Below, one piece after another: positions 1,418 through 9,740 of a stretch of DNA of 10,225 bases. The stretch comes from Nitrososphaeraceae archaeon. GTDB lineage: Archaea; Thermoproteota; Nitrososphaeria; Nitrososphaerales; Nitrososphaeraceae. The notes below the pieces were generated by a model. It saw only the letters and a list, made by a program, of their open reading frames with translations. It was not told the DNA's origin and did no database searches. Each line of letters opens with the position of its first letter. The first letter of the stretch is position 1. The stretch is taken from contig JASHSN010000123.1 in NCBI GenBank assembly GCA_030038695.1, forward strand, positions 1 to 10,225, given 5' to 3'. The position numbers and the translations under genes are program-made.

Positions 1418-2035
1418 AATTTGTGCTATACCTCCGTCGACGAAAAATTCAATACCTGTAATGTAACTGCCGTCATCAGATGCAAGAAAGGCGACTGCTT
1501 TTGCGACCTCATTAGGATTTCACACCCTACCCAGCGGTACGGAGTTGACGAAACTCGTCTTCAACTCTTCGAACTGTTCAGCACTCAGTCCCATACCCAT
1601 GCTAATGGCCATCGGTGTGGATATCGCACCAGGACTGACAGCGTTGACACGGATCTTACGGAGTTTTAGATCAACAGTACTGGAACGAGCGAATGATCGT
1701 ATAGCAGCCTTGGTCGCACCATAAACAATAACGCCCTCAAACCCTTTGGAGCATCCAATCGAAGCAGTCAGAATGATAGAACCACCGTCCAATTCTTTGC
1801 AATTGTGTAGATAAAAGCGACTTTTGTACATTGAATAGCAGGCCCTTTAACGTTGATACTGAATATTTTGTGAAAATGAGATTCAGTAATCGATCCTAAC
1901 GGTAGTAATTCAATAACGCCAGCATTGGCGAAGAGGACATTGATTAGGCCTTTCTGCTAGATTTGAGACATCTCCCTCAACACCGATGACATTTTTGCCA
2001 ATCTGCTTGGCAGTGGCAACTATGCCGCTATTTGC
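1418..2035 (-). pseudogene. Short-chain dehydrogenase/reductase (SDR), multiply broken
   Basis: Classical SDR landmarks appear in order on the minus strand but in different frames: an NSGI-like piece of the N-terminal glycine motif (near 2033), QIGKNVIGVEGDVSNLA (about 2004-1950), LFANAGVIELLPLG with the NAG motif (about 1930), GSIILTAS with the catalytic-type Ser (about 1780), YGATKAA with the YxxxK pair (about 1720), VNAVSPGAISTP, and the C-terminal phrase [10 protein letters not shown] (ending near 1418). Intact SDRs are about 245 residues and NAD(P)-dependent oxidoreductases. Lesions: about 30 residues lost between NSGI and KQIG, a deletion after SNLA, at least two frameshifts around 1790-1850, and a TGA (1520-1522) in [20 protein letters not shown]. 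The normal stop after the C-terminal phrase also seems lost. The longest clean piece (1520-1831) would encode 103 residues. The substrate of the ancestral enzyme is unknown. Confidence 0.9.
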
Positions 2036-2315: not shown

Positions 2316-2469
2316 TGATGTATTAACATTTCTATGATAAATGTATAAGTGTATATTACTCAACATACGTGTGGCACGGTGTGTTACAACATCCCACGCT
2401 AGTCGTTACGGAGTCTAGGGGTGTATTTCACGTTGAAAAGGTTGTTGAATAAGAAGTAGAAACTTTATT

Positions 2470-2649
2470 ATGAACCGTGCACTATACATACTAATCATAT
2501 ATGATATGCAAATAAGTGGGCTAGTGATATTAGTTGTCCTGAGCATTATACTTTTTGAAGTATTCCCAGAGAAAAGTGTTTGGTCGATCCCTGTCCGACA
2601 AGCAGATGAACATATGATTGCTGTTCCGGGCTCAGGACTTTATTATTAG
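2470..2649 (+). CDS. Small single-pass membrane protein with DEHM...PG motif, 59 aa
   Basis: An ATG-to-TAG frame too short for usual length cut-offs. Seen: an N-terminal hydrophobic helix at about residues 16-31 (SGLVILVVLSIILFEV), then FPEKSVWSIPVRQADEHM followed by IAVPGSGLYY at the C-terminus. The tail closely parallels the broken minus-strand copy at 3497-3700 (VPVKSIFSISIKPDDEHM then MEIPGLRGY), sharing P, KS, SI, DEHM, PG and Y in register. The resemblance supports this being a real gene family rather than a chance frame. Past the TAG, the same frame continues with basic residues (GKNKKRIK), as in the basic tail of the other copy, so the stop may itself be a truncation. It lies directly upstream of the response regulator, whose frame overlaps its end. 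Function unknown; a membrane partner of the signalling gene is an inference from position. Confidence 0.6.
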   Translation: MNRALYILIIYDMQISGLVILVVLSIILFEVFPEKSVWSIPVRQADEHMIAVPGSGLYY

Positions 2650-3086
2650 GGCAAAAACAAGAAACGCATAAAACTCTCACCAAAGAACAGCAACGATTTT
2701 GGAAAAGAATACTGATTGTAGATGACGATGTAGATATCACTACAACTTTCAAAGTAGGTATAGAAGAGAGCAATAAAAATGATAGTAACAAATGCAGAAT
2801 TGAGGTCTATGCATCTAATGATCCTATTGTAGCATTGTCTGATTTCAAACCAAATTTATATGATCTCCTTCTGGTTGACATTAACATGCCATATATGAAC
2901 GGATTTGAATTATGTGAGAAGATTTTGGTTACCGACATTAATGTCAGAATTTGTTTCATGTCTGCTGTAGAGATAAACCGTGAGGGACTGAGAGAGATAT
3001 ATCCATCACTAGGCTTAGGATGCTACATCAGAAAGCCGGTCAGTATAGATTATTTGCTCGAAAGGATCAGATCAGAATTGGATTAA
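2610..3086 (+). CDS. Stand-alone receiver-domain response regulator, no canonical start codon
   Basis: Recognisable coding begins near 2682 (KEQQRFWKRILIVDDD) and runs to a stop at 3084-3086, about 130 residues, one receiver domain with no output domain. All receiver landmarks are present: the acidic DDD after ILIV (2721-2729), the phospho-acceptor Asp in LLVDINMPYMNGFE (codon 2877-2879), the Ser in CFMSA (2961-2963) and the Lys in IRKPV (3033-3035). Stand-alone receivers relay phosphate from a histidine kinase, here plausibly the kinase at 3738-5933, though this is inference. Oddity: the frame is open back to a TGA at 2607-2609 but contains no ATG, GTG or TTG before the TTG at 2835, which is inside the domain and would remove the acidic pocket. 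Either the start was lost by mutation, an uncommon start is used, or a frameshift separated it from the 59-residue membrane ORF just upstream. Confidence 0.75.
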   Translation, partial: TYDCCSGLRTLLLGQKQETHKTLTKEQQRFWKRILIVDDDVDITTTFKVGIEESNKNDSNKCRIEVYASNDPIVALSDFKPNLYDLLLVDINMPYMNGFELCEKILVTDINVRICFMSAVEINREGLREIYPSLGLGCYIRKPVSIDYLLERIRSELD

Positions 3087-3496
3087 GTATATGTATGGGT
3101 GGTGCATCCTCAGACCAGTCTTAACAAGTGTGCAGTCAACATTGAAATATTCAGGCTCCGCATGCTAATCCAAAGACTCAAAAGACCTTGATCAAACGTG
3201 GATTAAGCGCTGCGAAGATGCATATTTTGGAACATGTGGTATAATTGCCTAACATGTTAGAAAGAATAAACTCTACAATTCTGTTAAAAATCACTCTCCT
3301 AGTTATCGTGTAAATTGGCCTAATTGTTTGTAGTTTCGATGTTTTTGCCGTAATTTCAGCCTCAACAATTATCATTGGGAATTTCAATCATATGCTGGCA
3401 AGAATAGATATCTTACTTCCAATCTTCTGTTACAAACAGAAAAATATTTGGATGGGACTTCGAATCAGGATTCTCCTTCTCTGGCGACACTGTTTC
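3087..3496. other. Region without an assignable gene; signal-peptide-like start at 3254
   Basis: On the plus strand an ATG at 3254 begins MLERINSTILLKITLLVIV, then a TAA (3311-3313), then IGLIVCSFDVFAVISAS in the same frame. If the TAA is read through, this looks like an N-terminal signal peptide with a cleavage-like end, and the frame then stays open to about 3532 without further recognisable sequence. It may be the head of a dead secreted-protein gene. An imperfect inverted repeat (GCTAATCCA at 3164-3172, TGGATTAAGC at 3199-3208) also lies here. Nothing else supportable. Confidence 0.25.
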
Positions 3497-3700
3497 TCAT
3501 CTCATCTTAGTCTTTTGTATCAATAATTTTGAATAACCTCTTAATCCTGGAATTTCCATCATATGTTCATCGTCAGGTTTAATAGAGATGGAAAATACTT
3601 TTTACTGGCACTACTACAAAAAATACAATGAAGATGATTGTTACTGCTGTACCAAAGCAATACCACAGGAGTTTGAGACTGTTGTGTTCCTTCTATCCAT
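3497..3700 (-). pseudogene. Frameshifted second copy of the DEHM...PG small membrane protein
   Basis: On the minus strand an ATG at 3700, 37 bp below the stop of the histidine kinase, begins MDR and then shifts frame to KEHNSLKLLWYCFG, TAVTIIFIVFFVVVPVKSIF, a clear transmembrane helix. A second shift in or near a TTTT run leads to SISIKPDDEHMMEIPGLRGY, then SKLLIQKTKMR and TGA (3497-3499). Repairing two single-base indels gives about 67 residues: a short N-terminus, one membrane helix and a conserved C-terminal tail. The tail aligns residue for residue with the copy at 2470-2649. Its position downstream of the kinase on the same strand suggests former co-transcription. Function unknown. Confidence 0.65.
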
Positions 3701-3737: not shown

Positions 3738-5933
3738 CTATCCGCTAAAGTCCTTATGAAGAGGTAAGCTAAATCCAAAGGTAGCTCCTTTTCCGGAAGG
3801 GTAATTATTCTTTCCCCATATCCTACCACCGTGAGCTTCGATTATGTTTTTTGATATGAAGAGACCAAGTCCGGTACCTGCTATAGATTTTGTAGTGGTT
3901 GTGGCAAATTTCGTGAAAAGTTTAGGTAATATTTCAGAATCTATCCCAGAGCCAGTATCGTTTATACTCACAACAATGTTGTTGCTATTTGGTATCACAA
4001 CCGCGGTTATAGTACCTTCCTTTGTAAATTTAATAGCATTACCTAGAAGATTTGAAATTACTTGATTAATCCTGCTCTTGTCTGCCACGATGAAGATGTC
4101 CTCTTTAGAACCTGTAAACTCTAATTTCAGATTAGTAGTAGCTTTGTGTTCTTTAATGACCCGGTTGTAGTCCGCAATAGTGTGCAATATCATGTCATTT
4201 AATTTGAATGACTCTTTTTTTAGATCTAGCGATTTGCTTTCTATTCTGCTGACGTCTAGAATGTCTTGAGTAAGCCTTTGAAGTCTTTGTGCATTTCTAA
4301 GGATGGTATCAAGTAATTGTTGTTGTTCGCTATCCTTTGTCTTGGAACGTAGAATTTGTGCTAGACCAAGTATTGGTTGCATAGGGGTACGTAATTCATG
4401 AGCCGCTATATTCACAAAATCATCCTTGAGCTTTTCTGATTCTTTTAGTTTTTGATACAATTCGGTTTGTTTCCATAATCTCTCAAATATTCCGACATAC
4501 GATAAGACACCGGCTTTGCTATTAGAATATGTTGATAGCCCTATAGCCTCATCAAAAGTTGTCTTCGAATCGTCTCTTATTTCCATTACTAGGGACATCT
4601 TTCTGTCAACTACTAGGATAGTAGCCATCGTGCCAGACGTTTGCTCGGTATATCTAATTTCTATAGTAGGGTTATAAATAGGTCTTCGCCCTAGTTCTTC
4701 CCCTACCTCTTGGTTGAATCTAGCTCCAACTTCTTCATTATAGGGAACCAAAATTCTAACCTTTACTCCCCGTTCTTTTGCCGCCTGTATAGCTAGCGGT
4801 GTTGCTCCGATTTTTGTCTGCCGAATAAATGCATTGCTAGTAGGAAAATTGAATAATACTTCTTCTTTAGCATTCTTTACAAGATCTAAGTAAAGAAGAC
4901 GAGATCTGGCTGATCTAGGAATGACTTCAATATCAGCCAAATCCACTCCCTCTTTGAGATCATTTATTCTATCCATGGCGTCTATCGAGTTATCCCACAA
5001 TTGTTCAAAGAGGCAATCATAGTGATCAATATAGATGGGTTCATTACTAACTAACAAGCTACTAATCATCTTACCCCCCTCCATCTTTTCTGCCGTAGCC
5101 AGAAATTCTTTATTAGAGATACAAAAGCTTAATGGTGTAAGATTTTTTGTGTGTCTAATTTGTACTCCTTCATTTAACAGCAAGGTTGCTAATCCTCGAT
5201 TGTCCTTGGTGATGGTTGTAATGAACCTTATCCCTTTATGTTCACCTCTTCTGTGCCTAGCCAAGACTTTTTTGTATGATCCACGAAAGTTATTGTAAAT
5301 TAGTTCGACTCCACCTGGATGAGAAGCTATTTTAATTTCATTAGAGGATTCAATATTCTTATTTATTCTTTTGGCAATTTCGCTAATATTCTTTAGCGCA
5401 ACAGTTTCAATATGTTCTATTCCTTCTTCTATTTCTTTAATTCTCTGTTCAGCTGGCGTTGCCTTATTCCACAGGATTTCGAATACATATTGGTGCTGTT
5501 GTATATCTTCTATGACATTGTTGTAGACTGCATGCGGTATAGTCGTTGTTAAACACTTTTCAGATAGACTAGCATCGGTTGTGGATATAGCAATGTATTC
5601 GGAATCGCTTACTCCAAAATTTCCCTTGACTCCATCTAAATGTCTGAGTTCTACAATCTCTATAAACTCTTTAGTGCAGGAAATATTCTCTCGTTTGATC
5701 TCAGTGATAAACCTCAATCTTGTACCCCTACTTTTTGCTTCCAAGATTGCATTCTTTACTGCTTCAAAACCAAAAGGTATTACTGACAACGATCTAACAT
5801 CGGCAAAATAATCCCACCTCCTATTTGTTTTGTGAAGAATATGCAGATGGGTGTCGATTATGATCTTAGTATCACGTAATACCTCAATCCTCCCGGCATC
5901 GATTTTTATATTGGCAGTCATAGGTGCATTCAT
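3738..5933 (-). CDS. Soluble sensor histidine kinase with three tandem PLD-like sensor modules
   Basis: An intact 731-residue protein. Kinase core: HisKA helix with phospho-acceptor His512 in AAHELRTP, N box RINQVISNLLGNAIKF (621-636), G1 box DTGSGID (659-665), F-box region KLFTKF, and G2 GTGLGL (686-691); it ends soon after the ATPase domain with no receiver. Residues 1-490 have no membrane segment and hold three related modules, each ending in a hydrophobic-LW phrase: about 50-155 (FEILWNK), 205-315 (LFEQLWDNS) and 340-488 (IFERLWKQT). The first two are followed by similar linkers (IKEIEEGIE, INDLKEGVD). The modules carry RGTRLRFITEI, KGIRFITTI and RGVKVRILV as matching strands, like phospholipase-D-like/TrmB-type ligand-binding domains, without an HKD catalytic motif. 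It autophosphorylates from ATP in the cytoplasm on an unknown cue. The first ATG is used; a second in-frame Met follows at residue 5. A possible TATA (CTTTATA, minus strand, about 6005-6011) would give a leader of about 50 nt. Confidence 0.93.
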   Translation of the reverse strand: MNAPMTANIKIDAGRIEVLRDTKIIIDTHLHILHKTNRRWDYFADVRSLSVIPFGFEAVKNAILEAKSRGTRLRFITEIKRENISCTKEFIEIVELRHLDGVKGNFGVSDSEYIAISTTDASLSEKCLTTTIPHAVYNNVIEDIQQHQYVFEILWNKATPAEQRIKEIEEGIEHIETVALKNISEIAKRINKNIESSNEIKIASHPGGVELIYNNFRGSYKKVLARHRRGEHKGIRFITTITKDNRGLATLLLNEGVQIRHTKNLTPLSFCISNKEFLATAEKMEGGKMISSLLVSNEPIYIDHYDCLFEQLWDNSIDAMDRINDLKEGVDLADIEVIPRSARSRLLYLDLVKNAKEEVLFNFPTSNAFIRQTKIGATPLAIQAAKERGVKVRILVPYNEEVGARFNQEVGEELGRRPIYNPTIEIRYTEQTSGTMATILVVDRKMSLVMEIRDDSKTTFDEAIGLSTYSNSKAGVLSYVGIFERLWKQTELYQKLKESEKLKDDFVNIAAHELRTPMQPILGLAQILRSKTKDSEQQQLLDTILRNAQRLQRLTQDILDVSRIESKSLDLKKESFKLNDMILHTIADYNRVIKEHKATTNLKLEFTGSKEDIFIVADKSRINQVISNLLGNAIKFTKEGTITAVVIPNSNNIVVSINDTGSGIDSEILPKLFTKFATTTTKSIAGTGLGLFISKNIIEAHGGRIWGKNNYPSGKGATFGFSLPLHKDFSG

Positions 5934-6089
5934 ATCAGCTGTATCTTAATTTCATACCGTGGGTCATGACAGTTCGAATACCACAACACTGATATGGTAG
6001 GAACTATAAAGATATTACTAGACATACGTGCTACATTGTCCCACCATATAGCGTATGGCAGATAGAATTTAGATCGAATCTTTCTATTG

Positions 6090-6116: not shown

Positions 6117-6440
6117 ATGACTAATTCCCCGCCTTTTAATGATCTTGTAGAAAAAATGGTATTTCATCGTACTGAAACGGTTATCAGTGAAGAATTGCTA
6201 TTTTTCTCTAAAACTCGACAACTCATTGAAACATGCATGGATTCTACGAGGCCATCATTCGCTATCGGGATCGAATCAATAAAGAGGCCGTCATTGATAT
6301 CAAAAGTAGAGGTGTGAAATTGAGGTAGCTAACCGACATCAAAGATGCTAATATTTCCTATTGCAAAAAGCTGATGTCGATTGTAGACGAGGTTCGGCAT
6401 CTTGATTAGATCAAAGGCAATTTTATGGTAAGAGAGATGG
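6117..6440 (+). pseudogene. N-terminal fragment of a PLD-like-sensor histidine kinase
   Basis: Translation from 6117 starts MTNSPPFNDLVEKMVFHRTE and continues through FFSKTRQLIETCMDSTRPSF. After a frameshift near 6278 it reads KEAVIDIKSRGVKLR, then a TAG (6326-6328), LTDIKDANISYCKKLMSIVD, EVRHLD, a second TAG (6407-6409) and IKGNFMV. It follows the first sensor module of the intact neighbour kinase in order: KSRGVKLR/LTDIK against KSRGTRLRFITEIK, NISYCKKLMSIVDEVRHLD against NISCTKEFIEIVELRHLD, and IKGNF against VKGNF. Only about 105 residues of the sensor remain; the rest of the sensor and the whole kinase core are absent. It is divergent to the intact kinase, so this was probably a back-to-back pair of paralogous sensors. 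Lesions: one frameshift, two stops and a deletion of everything downstream. Confidence 0.85.
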
Positions 6441-6456
6441 AATGTTTGCGTACTAG

Positions 6457-6699
6457 GTTACTAAATGGTTCAGCAAGGACGACAGTTTGGATGTTACAGG
6501 TTGCATTGCAAGTTCGTACCTTTCAAATAATCTTGTATGTACCGCAACCACTTCCTTTCCATTACTTACAGAAAAATCTAGCAACAGCTTTAAAGTATAC
6601 AATAAAATATCCTCAGAAGGGTTCACAGTCATTCATCCGATCTCGGTCGGTGATTTAAACTGGTTAAGCTCTGAAGCAGACCTGTTCAGGGTCGTCTAG
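6457..6699 (+). pseudogene. C-terminal remnant of an unidentified protein
   Basis: A stop-free frame of about 80 codons after a TAG at 6454-6456, ending at TAG 6697-6699. It reads as genuine protein: WFSKDDSLDVTGCIASSYLS, NNLVCTATTSFPLLTEKSS, NSFKVYNKISSEGFTVIHP, VGDLNWLSSEADLFRVV. The two cysteines, the Ser/Thr-rich strand pattern and lack of a charged-helix signature suggest a small secreted or beta-rich domain, but I do not recognise the family. No credible start exists (an internal TTG at 6487 is the only option), and it abuts the broken sensor directly, so an earlier deletion probably joined two unrelated gene ends. A shifted frame at 6425-6658 overlaps it and is less protein-like. Confidence 0.4.
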
Positions 6700-7966: not shown

Positions 7967-9132
7967 TTACATTTTGAATAGACGATGATGTGGATGACGT
8001 CTTACATCTAGAGCAACTTGACCACCACAGGCTATAGCCACAGCAGACATCAGAAATACAGGCAAGAGTCCTTCATTTGGTATGGCAACTACGATAACGA
8101 CAATAGCAGCTATCATACCATATAAGGCCATCGGAAATTCTTTTCTTAAAGAATTATTATTAACTTGGTTTGTCCTTTCAGATGTGATATGCATAACACC
8201 AAGTGCAAACAGGCATATTGAAACCGAAACACACAACAATCATTTCTCTGCAAAAGGCATTGCTAGATTCTGATTATCCAGTACAACATGTTCAATACTT
8301 ACTCCTAAAGCAGTAAATCCAATTAGTAAAGGAAAATGTATGTAAAGCCAGCAAAGATATATCCCAACTCGTCTTTCGCTGCGTAATGCCTTTATCTCAG
8401 ATCCATCCACGATGTCAAAGTATATCCACCATAGACTGAAAGCTATTCCAAGTCCTAGTGCTGTATCAGTAATTGATTGAGCAGTCCATTCATGACTTGA
8501 TATGCCATCTACAACTGCTAGTATGGAAATACCAAATACTATGATAGTAAATGATCCAAAGCGTTCAGGTAGGTGATGAATATTGGGAGCAAATTTTACT
8601 GCCATACTCCGAGTAAATATCATTGGTATTGAAATATCTATAATCAAACCTATTATCCAGAAGATGAAACGAAAAGGTATAGGTACTAAAGCAGACACAA
8701 ACCATAATGCTGCTACGATCGAAAAGCCAATGCAATATCGCTTTATGAATGGACGTGTTGCAGGAACATTTCTTCCAGTGCGCAGATATTCAATAACAAG
8801 AATGGCACGTGTTGCCGCGAAAGATAGTGCAAATCCACTGGAATCCTTGCCAAAGCCATCAGAAACACATACGGCCATGAAAGCAGCTGCAGCCATTTGC
8901 AAAAGTGTTAACAGACGGTGTCCTAAATCATCAGTTTCAAACCTTGAATTATAGAAGGTAACTCCTATCCACGACAAAAAACAGGTACAAATAGCGCAAC
9001 AAACACCAGAAATCCTGAAACTGAAACATTATGATTAAGAATTGAACTCAGCTGAAAAACTACAATCGCAACGATCAAATCGTAGAAATTCTCTAACCAT
9101 GATGCATGTCTTTCTTTCTCGATATTCTCCAC
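7967..9132 (-). pseudogene. Low temperature requirement A (LtrA) family membrane protein, one frameshift and one opal stop
   Basis: Three consecutive minus-strand segments form one LtrA protein of about 387 residues, the family's normal length. First (9132 to about 8980): ENIEKERHASWLENFYDL then SVSGFLVFVALFVPVF, the usual LtrA N-terminus. Second (8977-8240): SWIGVTFYNSRFETDDLGHR and later LPERFGSFTIIVFG, the family signature, with several hydrophobic helices. Third (8239-7967): LLCVSVSICLFALGVMHI, two more helices and a basic tail RRHPHHRLFKM. Lesions: a run of six A at 8976-8981 (T on the coding strand) is one base short of the frame VPVF-L-SWIG, and a TGA (8240-8242) sits in FAEK*LLC where a Trp codon would fit. 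The start is taken as GTG at 9132, since no ATG is in frame and homology begins there. The family consists of predicted multi-pass membrane proteins of poorly known function. Confidence 0.88.
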
Positions 9133-9251: not shown

Positions 9252-9740
9252 ATGAGATTAAGTAGCGATTACGTTGCAGTTGCGTTACTAGCCGTAAGTA
9301 GAAGAGCTACGATGATCCTTCTTGCAAAGGCCTACTTTAATATAATTCTAGTATCATTATATCATAAGTTGAGTGCAGTAAGCGAGGTTCTAAAGAAATT
9401 TGACGAACTCGAAAATGCTATGAAAATACACCTTGGAAAAGTCGATCCCCCATTAATTGTCGATCTAATACTACGTCAAAGGAAGGAGAAGAATCCTATA
9501 TATACTCTCGAGGTTTTCATAAAGGCAGGACAGGATACTAACGAAATCAGGAATCGGATAATCAAAGAAACTGGTATGGTTCCAGTTTTCTATGACGAAG
9601 GAACACATATTGTAGTAGCACACAGAGTCAATTTTGACATGCTAAAGATGATAAATGATATTGAATTTGTAGATAGAATTAGAGGCACTTACGCAGGTGT
9701 CCAGGCGTCAATAGGGCCAGTTTATGAGAAAGACGACTAA
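9252..9740 (+). CDS. Conserved-looking protein of unknown function, 162 aa (start uncertain)
   Basis: An intact frame to TAA. The C-terminal two-thirds look like a compact alpha/beta domain: DPPLIVDLILRQRKEKNPIY, TLEVFIKAGQDTNEIRNRII, ETGMVPVFYDEGTHIVVAHR, MINDIEFVDRIRGTYAGVQA, ending SIGPVYEKDD. The pattern strand - helix (NEIRNRIIKETG) - strand - strand - helix - strand (VDRIRGTYAG) resembles a ferredoxin-like or inhibitor-I9-like fold; this is inference from pattern only. Residues 1-56 are a hydrophobic, less convincing extension (VALLAVSRRATMILLAKAYF). A TATA-like TTTAATATAA at 9336-9345 lies 25-30 bp upstream of an in-frame TTG (9369), and an ATG at 9420 starts exactly at the domain, so the real protein may be 106-123 residues. 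Its neighbours are a divergent LtrA pseudogene and a cupredoxin remnant; no operon is seen. Confidence 0.65.
   Translation: MRLSSDYVAVALLAVSRRATMILLAKAYFNIILVSLYHKLSAVSEVLKKFDELENAMKIHLGKVDPPLIVDLILRQRKEKNPIYTLEVFIKAGQDTNEIRNRIIKETGMVPVFYDEGTHIVVAHRVNFDMLKMINDIEFVDRIRGTYAGVQASIGPVYEKDD
9336..9345 (+). promoter_or_regulatory. TATA-like element inside the 5' end of the 9252 frame
   Basis: TTTAATATAA is centred about 28 bp upstream of an in-frame TTG at 9369 and 80 bp upstream of the ATG at 9420. No comparable element precedes the ATG at 9252. It favours a downstream start for this gene. Confidence 0.3.

Follow-up and report, generated by a model that had tools for sequence, protein, structure and literature searches.

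The window, by which we mean the whole stretch of DNA analysed (10,225 nt from a Nitrososphaeraceae archaeon), carries two copies of a short module, a hydrophobic helix followed by a juxtamembrane segment with the motif DEHM, beside a receiver domain and a histidine kinase. On the plus strand, the 59-aa open reading frame (ORF) at 2470-2649 was confirmed in the ORF list of the window. Database gene calls for members of the family use two differing starts: ATG 2506 (MQI..) is the commoner, and ATG 2470 overlaps a TATA-box-like TTTATTAT (2464-2471, plus strand), a candidate promoter element that was present in five of six aligned copies from the same genome (it is missing from L005). Helix and DEHM segment occupy 2506-2649 (plus strand), and the frame ends at a disruption (2638-2648). 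The receiver half follows in another frame (2652-3086, plus strand) and was identified by its frame and residues and by Pfam PF00072 (match to 2652-3083, E=5.5e-14, 52.7 bits against a cut-off of 30.2).

On the minus strand, a frameshifted relative of the 59-aa ORF was located at about 3497-3700, with its helix and DEHM tail in two frames. It was matched by two module profiles (A3, E=1.7e-4; A2, E=4.0e-6), and at the DNA level it aligned over 179 nt with a related gene from another species, scoring 132 where 200 shuffles reached at most 49. After a gap of 37 bases comes the stop (at 3738) of an intact 731-aa histidine kinase (3738-5933, minus strand; Pfam HisKA and HATPase_c), the N-terminus of which gave a weak PLDc_2-like match below the Pfam cut-off. 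The first-pass annotation had reported two related copies with one membrane helix each, the 37-base gap, and a kinase and a receiver lacking membrane segments, and in these points it was borne out: the similarity of the copies is beyond chance, and their KD19 maxima are 2.55 (plus) and 2.67 (minus), against 1.02 for the kinase and 1.23 for the receiver, neither of which has a hydrophobic stretch as strong. Across a palindrome (6028-6044) from the window kinase lies what is left of the sensor region of another, divergent kinase (6281-6472, plus strand), 45% identical to window-kinase residues 60-122.

The window's own genome (G000; 679 contigs, 78.5% complete) has more copies on five other contigs, plus a sixth, C402. 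On contig C428, helix, DEHM segment and receiver lie in a single open frame, and the in-frame fusion was also found in four other genomes of the genus; in the intact relatives, helix and DEHM segment form the N-terminus of a protein of about 194 aa, in frame with the receiver. Because C428 and the database proteins carry both parts in one frame, the 59-aa ORF is the first part of the receiver gene that follows, and not a separate gene before a stand-alone receiver, as originally described. Compared with this intact paralogue, the window sequence has a net 4 nt fewer at 2638-2648, and 2506-2649 and the receiver at 2652-3086 read as one gene, split by that loss.

The minus-strand copy is read as a stub left from another membrane-anchored receiver, one of subtype B: its best relative is a 215-aa helix-DEHM-receiver protein (G020:C48), to which it is 57% identical, and its DNA homology stops at the linker/receiver border. 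No recognisable receiver remnant was found behind it (local score 27, shuffle mean 27). Among 30 kinase loci (with at most 1.5 kb of flanking sequence, less where a contig ended), a stub beside the kinase was present only at the locus of the window; at one other locus, L093, a weak 26-aa match to the helix alone was obtained (E=0.34). Since the other fetched kinase loci are without the stub, the minus copy appears to be a truncated gene beside a kinase and not part of a conserved pair, and its earlier description as a kinase-linked gene was not upheld. Both DEHM copies of this soil archaeon are, judging by their sequences, broken genes.

With profile A3, the module was detected in five of the six genomes of the genus, and 64 other genomes of the family gave no match below E=0.05 (best 0.051). 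With profile A2, run on 400 genomes of the class (a set that did not include G023), the sole match outside the genus was in G399 (E=0.005) and contains four stops. Many weaker A2 matches within the genus were rejected as soluble receivers, matched via their linker end, and weak matches in the family outside the genus were read as cation-efflux-like and other ORFs. The module was absent from the viral contigs searched, and the named genome contigs yielded three loci, all from genomes of the genus already counted. Fourteen module copies were collected: eight from the window's genome, three from G023 (one cut by a contig end) and one each from G020, G021 and G024. Only C428 among the eight is full-length and unbroken.

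Receivers with the module belong to subtypes A (the window gene, C428 and others), B (G020:C48) and C (G024:C117 and G021:C74). Subtype C sits, in two species, behind a 597-aa ORF (L111 6225-8781; L112 1685-4238), which we take to be GlmS-like. On a 40-row receiver tree, which is rough (one very long branch was removed and several long branches remain), the anchor label needs seven changes, at least four of them forced by well-supported branches, so the anchor would have been gained or lost repeatedly.

A fourth carrier is a ribbon-helix-helix-like protein of 244-279 aa (G023:C149; L113 3503-4318), in which the whole module was found in eight rows of alignment A5; 21 relatives of about 200 aa in the same alignment (one named Nitrososphaera) are without it. 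RHH_5 was matched at E<=1 in 21 of the 34 members of this family (best 6.4e-4) and RHH_1 in ten. The module-bearing member P0186 had no RHH match at E<=1, and a PDB search gave a weak match to AvtR (E=0.2). The part common to the family is predicted, with moderate confidence, to be ribbon-helix-helix-like. Weak H-NOX-like matches from a fold search with the same protein (E about 0.01, TM-score about 0.3) were set aside. Alignments A4 and A5 contain 44 and 34 hand-chosen sequences, respectively.

A palindromic pattern, GTGNNACNNNGTNNCAC, was seen upstream of receiver copies. In the window, the 17-bp site GTGCTACATTGTCCCAC (6028-6044) was found by pattern match about 95 bp ahead of the kinase start, with the divergent remnant on its other side; its matrix score of 29.4 bits is circular, the site having been in the training set of the matrix. 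A degenerate palindrome, GTGGCAC-GGT-GTGTTAC-AAC-ATCCCAC (2371-2397, plus strand), lies about 110 bp before ATG 2506 and gave two matrix hits, of 17.6 and 14.7 bits, from outside the training set. For background, a Markov sequence of 2 Mb gave two matches of at least 17 bits and 17 of at least 13 bits. Half-sites are at times repeated at a 10-bp step.

The palindrome occurs 38 times in the six genomes of the genus, where its reversed form occurs nine times; in the other 64 genomes of the family each was counted 24 times. The surplus comes from G000 (17 vs 3), G023 (12 vs 1) and G022 (6 vs 2), with none in G020, G021 and G024. When up to three mismatches to GTGCTACAATGTCCCAC were allowed on both strands, the counts were 38 vs 0 in G000, 14 vs 0 in G022, 18 vs 6 in G023, 6 vs 5 in G024, 1 vs 2 in G021 and 0 vs 1 in G020. 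Palindromes precede the starts of six subtype-A genes by about 77-120 bp, and are also found before other receivers, kinases and exported-looking proteins (N-termini read by eye). Eleven of the 38 sites have a kinase or receiver match no more than 320 bp downstream (0.7% for a random point), a count that includes non-independent paralogues and becomes six of 38 for kinases and module-free receivers only. No site of at least 13 bits was found at the subtype B, subtype C or ribbon-helix-helix-like genes, or at the partial copies C402 and C337, and G022 has palindromes and no module. Since the B and C genes have no site and G022 has no module, the palindrome seems to be tied to subtype A and some kinases, not to the module as such.

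The palindrome is most simply regarded as a putative operator of a common regulator; we know of no regulator that acts on it. It is rather unlikely that it represents a mobile repeat or an RNA element, spread by duplication, and no operator. The gene family did grow by duplication, the C428 and C439 copies have longer flanks in common and a good part of the 38 sites has no convincing gene behind it, but the flanks of the 38 sites mostly hold about 0.1 bit per column (0.5 bit for the two bases adjoining the site), and sites stand before genes as unrelated as receivers, kinases and seemingly exported proteins. Within the site, ten columns are fixed by the search pattern and the free columns hold 0.3-1.5 bit.

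The receiver half of the window gene has kept its key residues, and its frame is open up to the normal stop. Two database proteins, P0122 (59 aa; 83% identity to the window ORF, frame still open) and P0124 (58 aa), have endings almost as in the window ORF, so an assembly error in the window genome is unlikely; as both keep an open frame of 58-59 aa, there is a small chance of a stand-alone product. The preserved receiver half and P0122 would be in keeping with a window gene that still functions, either through programmed frameshifting or through separate translation of the anchor (59 aa) and the receiver. This is nevertheless very unlikely: the receiver frame has no start codon before TTG 2835 (ORF list), which lies within the domain, and sister copies in this genome carry breaks of different kinds. 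Inactivation by the frameshift is the reading retained here.

Intact relatives have a strongly conserved juxtamembrane peptide, FPEKSVWSIPVRQADEHMIAVPxSGG, and a more variable linker after it. Across 44 hand-chosen module sequences, mean identity was highest over residues 26-41 (WSIPVRQADEHMIAVP; 0.92) and residues 17-45 (0.89), followed by the receiver (0.85), the helix (0.82) and the linker (0.81). In ten of ten pairs from five gene copies, juxtamembrane dN was lower than dS (0.03-0.20 vs 0.37-1.21; small numbers). D75, D126, S/T154 and K178 were found in 44 of 44 aligned rows and D74 in 43 of 44, positions which we take to be the acid pair, phosphoacceptor Asp, Ser/Thr and Lys of a receiver; phosphoacceptor Asp and Lys are thereby present in every row. 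AlphaFold2 modelled a helix of 16 residues (3-18, pLDDT about 55-60), an unstructured stretch (20-63, pLDDT under 50) and then the receiver (about 72-90), and in a PDB search the C-terminal part matched receiver folds (best E 2e-7). Conservation of the DEHM peptide, although it is modelled without structure, hints at a site for binding or cleavage.

That the N-terminal helix is a hydrophobic docking helix within a soluble complex, and no membrane anchor, is given a very low probability. The helix is short, with few flanking charges and low model confidence, and conservation extends past it; against this, KD19 is 2.0 in P0047, 2.3 in P0186 and 2.55 and 2.67 in the window copies, compared with 1.0-1.2 for the kinase and receiver, and KD17 is at least 1.6 near the N-terminus in 119 of the best 120 listed database matches. 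In P0197, of the other module-bearing kind, the strongest hydrophobic stretch is elsewhere and not in the module. A membrane anchor is the preferred reading of the helix.

The database search with the C428 protein returned 2705 proteins at E<=1e-3, probably including ordinary receivers, and the best 120 were examined. All 120 carry PF00072 (56.7 bits in the intact member P0047); 119 measure 184-236 aa, the exception being 147 aa long. The motif [DEQ][DE]H[MIVL] accompanies a hydrophobic N-terminal segment in 114 of these best 120 matches, always in one protein with the receiver, which speaks against the stand-alone family that had been proposed. Nor was the family overlooked in annotation for its shortness: intact members are already annotated, many of the listed matches as 'CheY-like chemotaxis protein'. 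P0113 and three short matches are named Candidatus Nitrosopolaris, and among the listed matches P0065 is labelled Bacteroidia and P0076 Bathyarchaeia.

For the search with the 59-aa ORF, a length window of 44-103 aa was used, so that full-length proteins were barred, and 65 short proteins were matched. Their ends fall in or near the linker (39), in a recognisable out-of-frame receiver start (7) or inside the receiver (19); these classes were assigned with rough regular expressions, the linker class being a catch-all with a few others in it (P0162 and P0182 among them), and 47 of the 65 sequences were read.

Homologues had been expected to be enriched beside signalling genes. A histidine-kinase ATPase domain lay no more than 3 kb from five of the 14 modules (including both window copies) and 28 of 122 other receivers (Fisher P=0.33), and no more than 1 kb from three of 14 and 22 of 122; the count covers five genomes, with G022, module-bearing receivers and kinase matches weaker than E=1e-15 omitted, and is based on 122 of 243 receiver matches and 113 of 159 kinase matches. 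A special kinase partnership of the module is not supported, and a test for enrichment beside HisKA or receiver genes misses the point for a segment that is the receiver's own.

A separate family of small membrane proteins, acting in trans to bring soluble kinases and receivers to the membrane, is a very improbable explanation: both copies do adjoin two-component genes, and there are 65 short matches (44-103 aa) among which P0122 and P0124 end almost identically, but the in-frame fusions largely refute it, helix and motif sit on a receiver in 114 of the 120 listed full-length matches, the short matches end variously, as broken copies or contig ends would, and linkage to kinases is no greater than that of other receivers. 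The membrane link proposed for a two-component protein most likely stands in another form, in cis as the N-terminus of the receiver, and not as a separate partner of 59-67 residues. The window gene (2506-3086) is thus, with good confidence, a membrane-anchored single-domain (CheY-like) response regulator inactivated by a frameshift, and the minus copy the stub of a gene of another subtype.

According to the passages of PMC5847659 on this class, REC-only (CheY-like) proteins make up about 75% of the response regulators of Thaumarchaeota and are thought to act by protein-protein contacts. The module proteins resemble them in having a receiver with phosphorylation residues and no output domain, and differ from them in the N-terminal hydrophobic helix and the conserved juxtamembrane peptide; in those passages no membrane anchor is mentioned for REC-only regulators. 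REC-only regulators are defined by the absence of a further domain or membrane segment, from which the hydrophobic segment of the 119 listed matches (KD17 of at least 1.6) and the modelled helix 3-18 depart. Archaeal receivers with lineage-specific partner domains (NitrOD2-REC, NitrOD3-REC and MetOD3-REC-MetOD2) are described in the corresponding part of PMC5847659, where MetOD3 is called membrane-anchored. Like these domains, the module stands N-terminal to REC and has a narrow distribution within Nitrososphaeria, and MetOD3, as characterised in that part, also anchors its receiver. The Pfam scan of P0047 gave PF00072 alone at E<=1 and no PF18550, so by that scan it is not NitrOD2; for MetOD3 and NitrOD3, which lack Pfam entries, the comparison with the module follows their description in the same passages. 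The module proteins are best classified, from sequence comparison, as REC-only response regulators, a known kind, varied by an anchor and a conserved peptide and seen here in one genus only.

Phrase searches of the literature on response regulators described as membrane-anchored, membrane-bound, membrane-tethered or transmembrane turned up no paper, and combined-term searches listed nothing on the subject. Membrane-tethered transcription factors released by proteolysis are a comparable system. The module on the ribbon-helix-helix-like protein has a layout that would likewise permit tethering and release; unlike such factors, the receiver versions have no DNA-binding domain, and cleavage here is purely conjectural. 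A passage in PMC3633832 deals with another protein.

For an intact anchored receiver, the following mechanism is proposed: the N-terminal helix would tether the receiver to the membrane, facing the cytoplasm, and soluble kinases like the neighbouring one would phosphorylate it. Because the output domain is absent, the receiver would act by binding a partner at the membrane. The unstructured conserved DEHM peptide would be a docking or processing site, its occurrence together with the helix on a ribbon-helix-helix-like protein is in line with a tether common to both kinds of protein, and the palindrome upstream of the receiver gene and the kinase would be the operator of a common regulator. A wider scheme is put forward tentatively, as possible if doubtful: the genus may have evolved a portable tether (helix plus DEHM peptide), carried by three receiver subtypes and a ribbon-helix-helix DNA-binding protein, with the peptide as a docking or cleavage signal, phosphorylation or proteolysis setting membrane retention, and a genus-specific palindromic operator joining the commonest of these receivers and soluble kinases in one regulon. 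With the receiver confined to the membrane and a short conserved peptide next to it, the location of its partner would be narrowed down, the peptide could serve as bait for that partner, and the palindrome would define a testable regulon in soil ammonia oxidisers.

Elsewhere in the window, open frames of 169 and 162 aa (872-1381 and 9252-9740, both plus strand) had no Pfam match at E<=0.01, and a short-chain dehydrogenase fragment with the later part of the domain only was found at 1520-1831 (minus strand). An LtrA-family gene (7967-9132, minus strand) is apparently split over three ORFs: 8243-8977 matches LtrA, and the flanking ORFs were assigned by eye.
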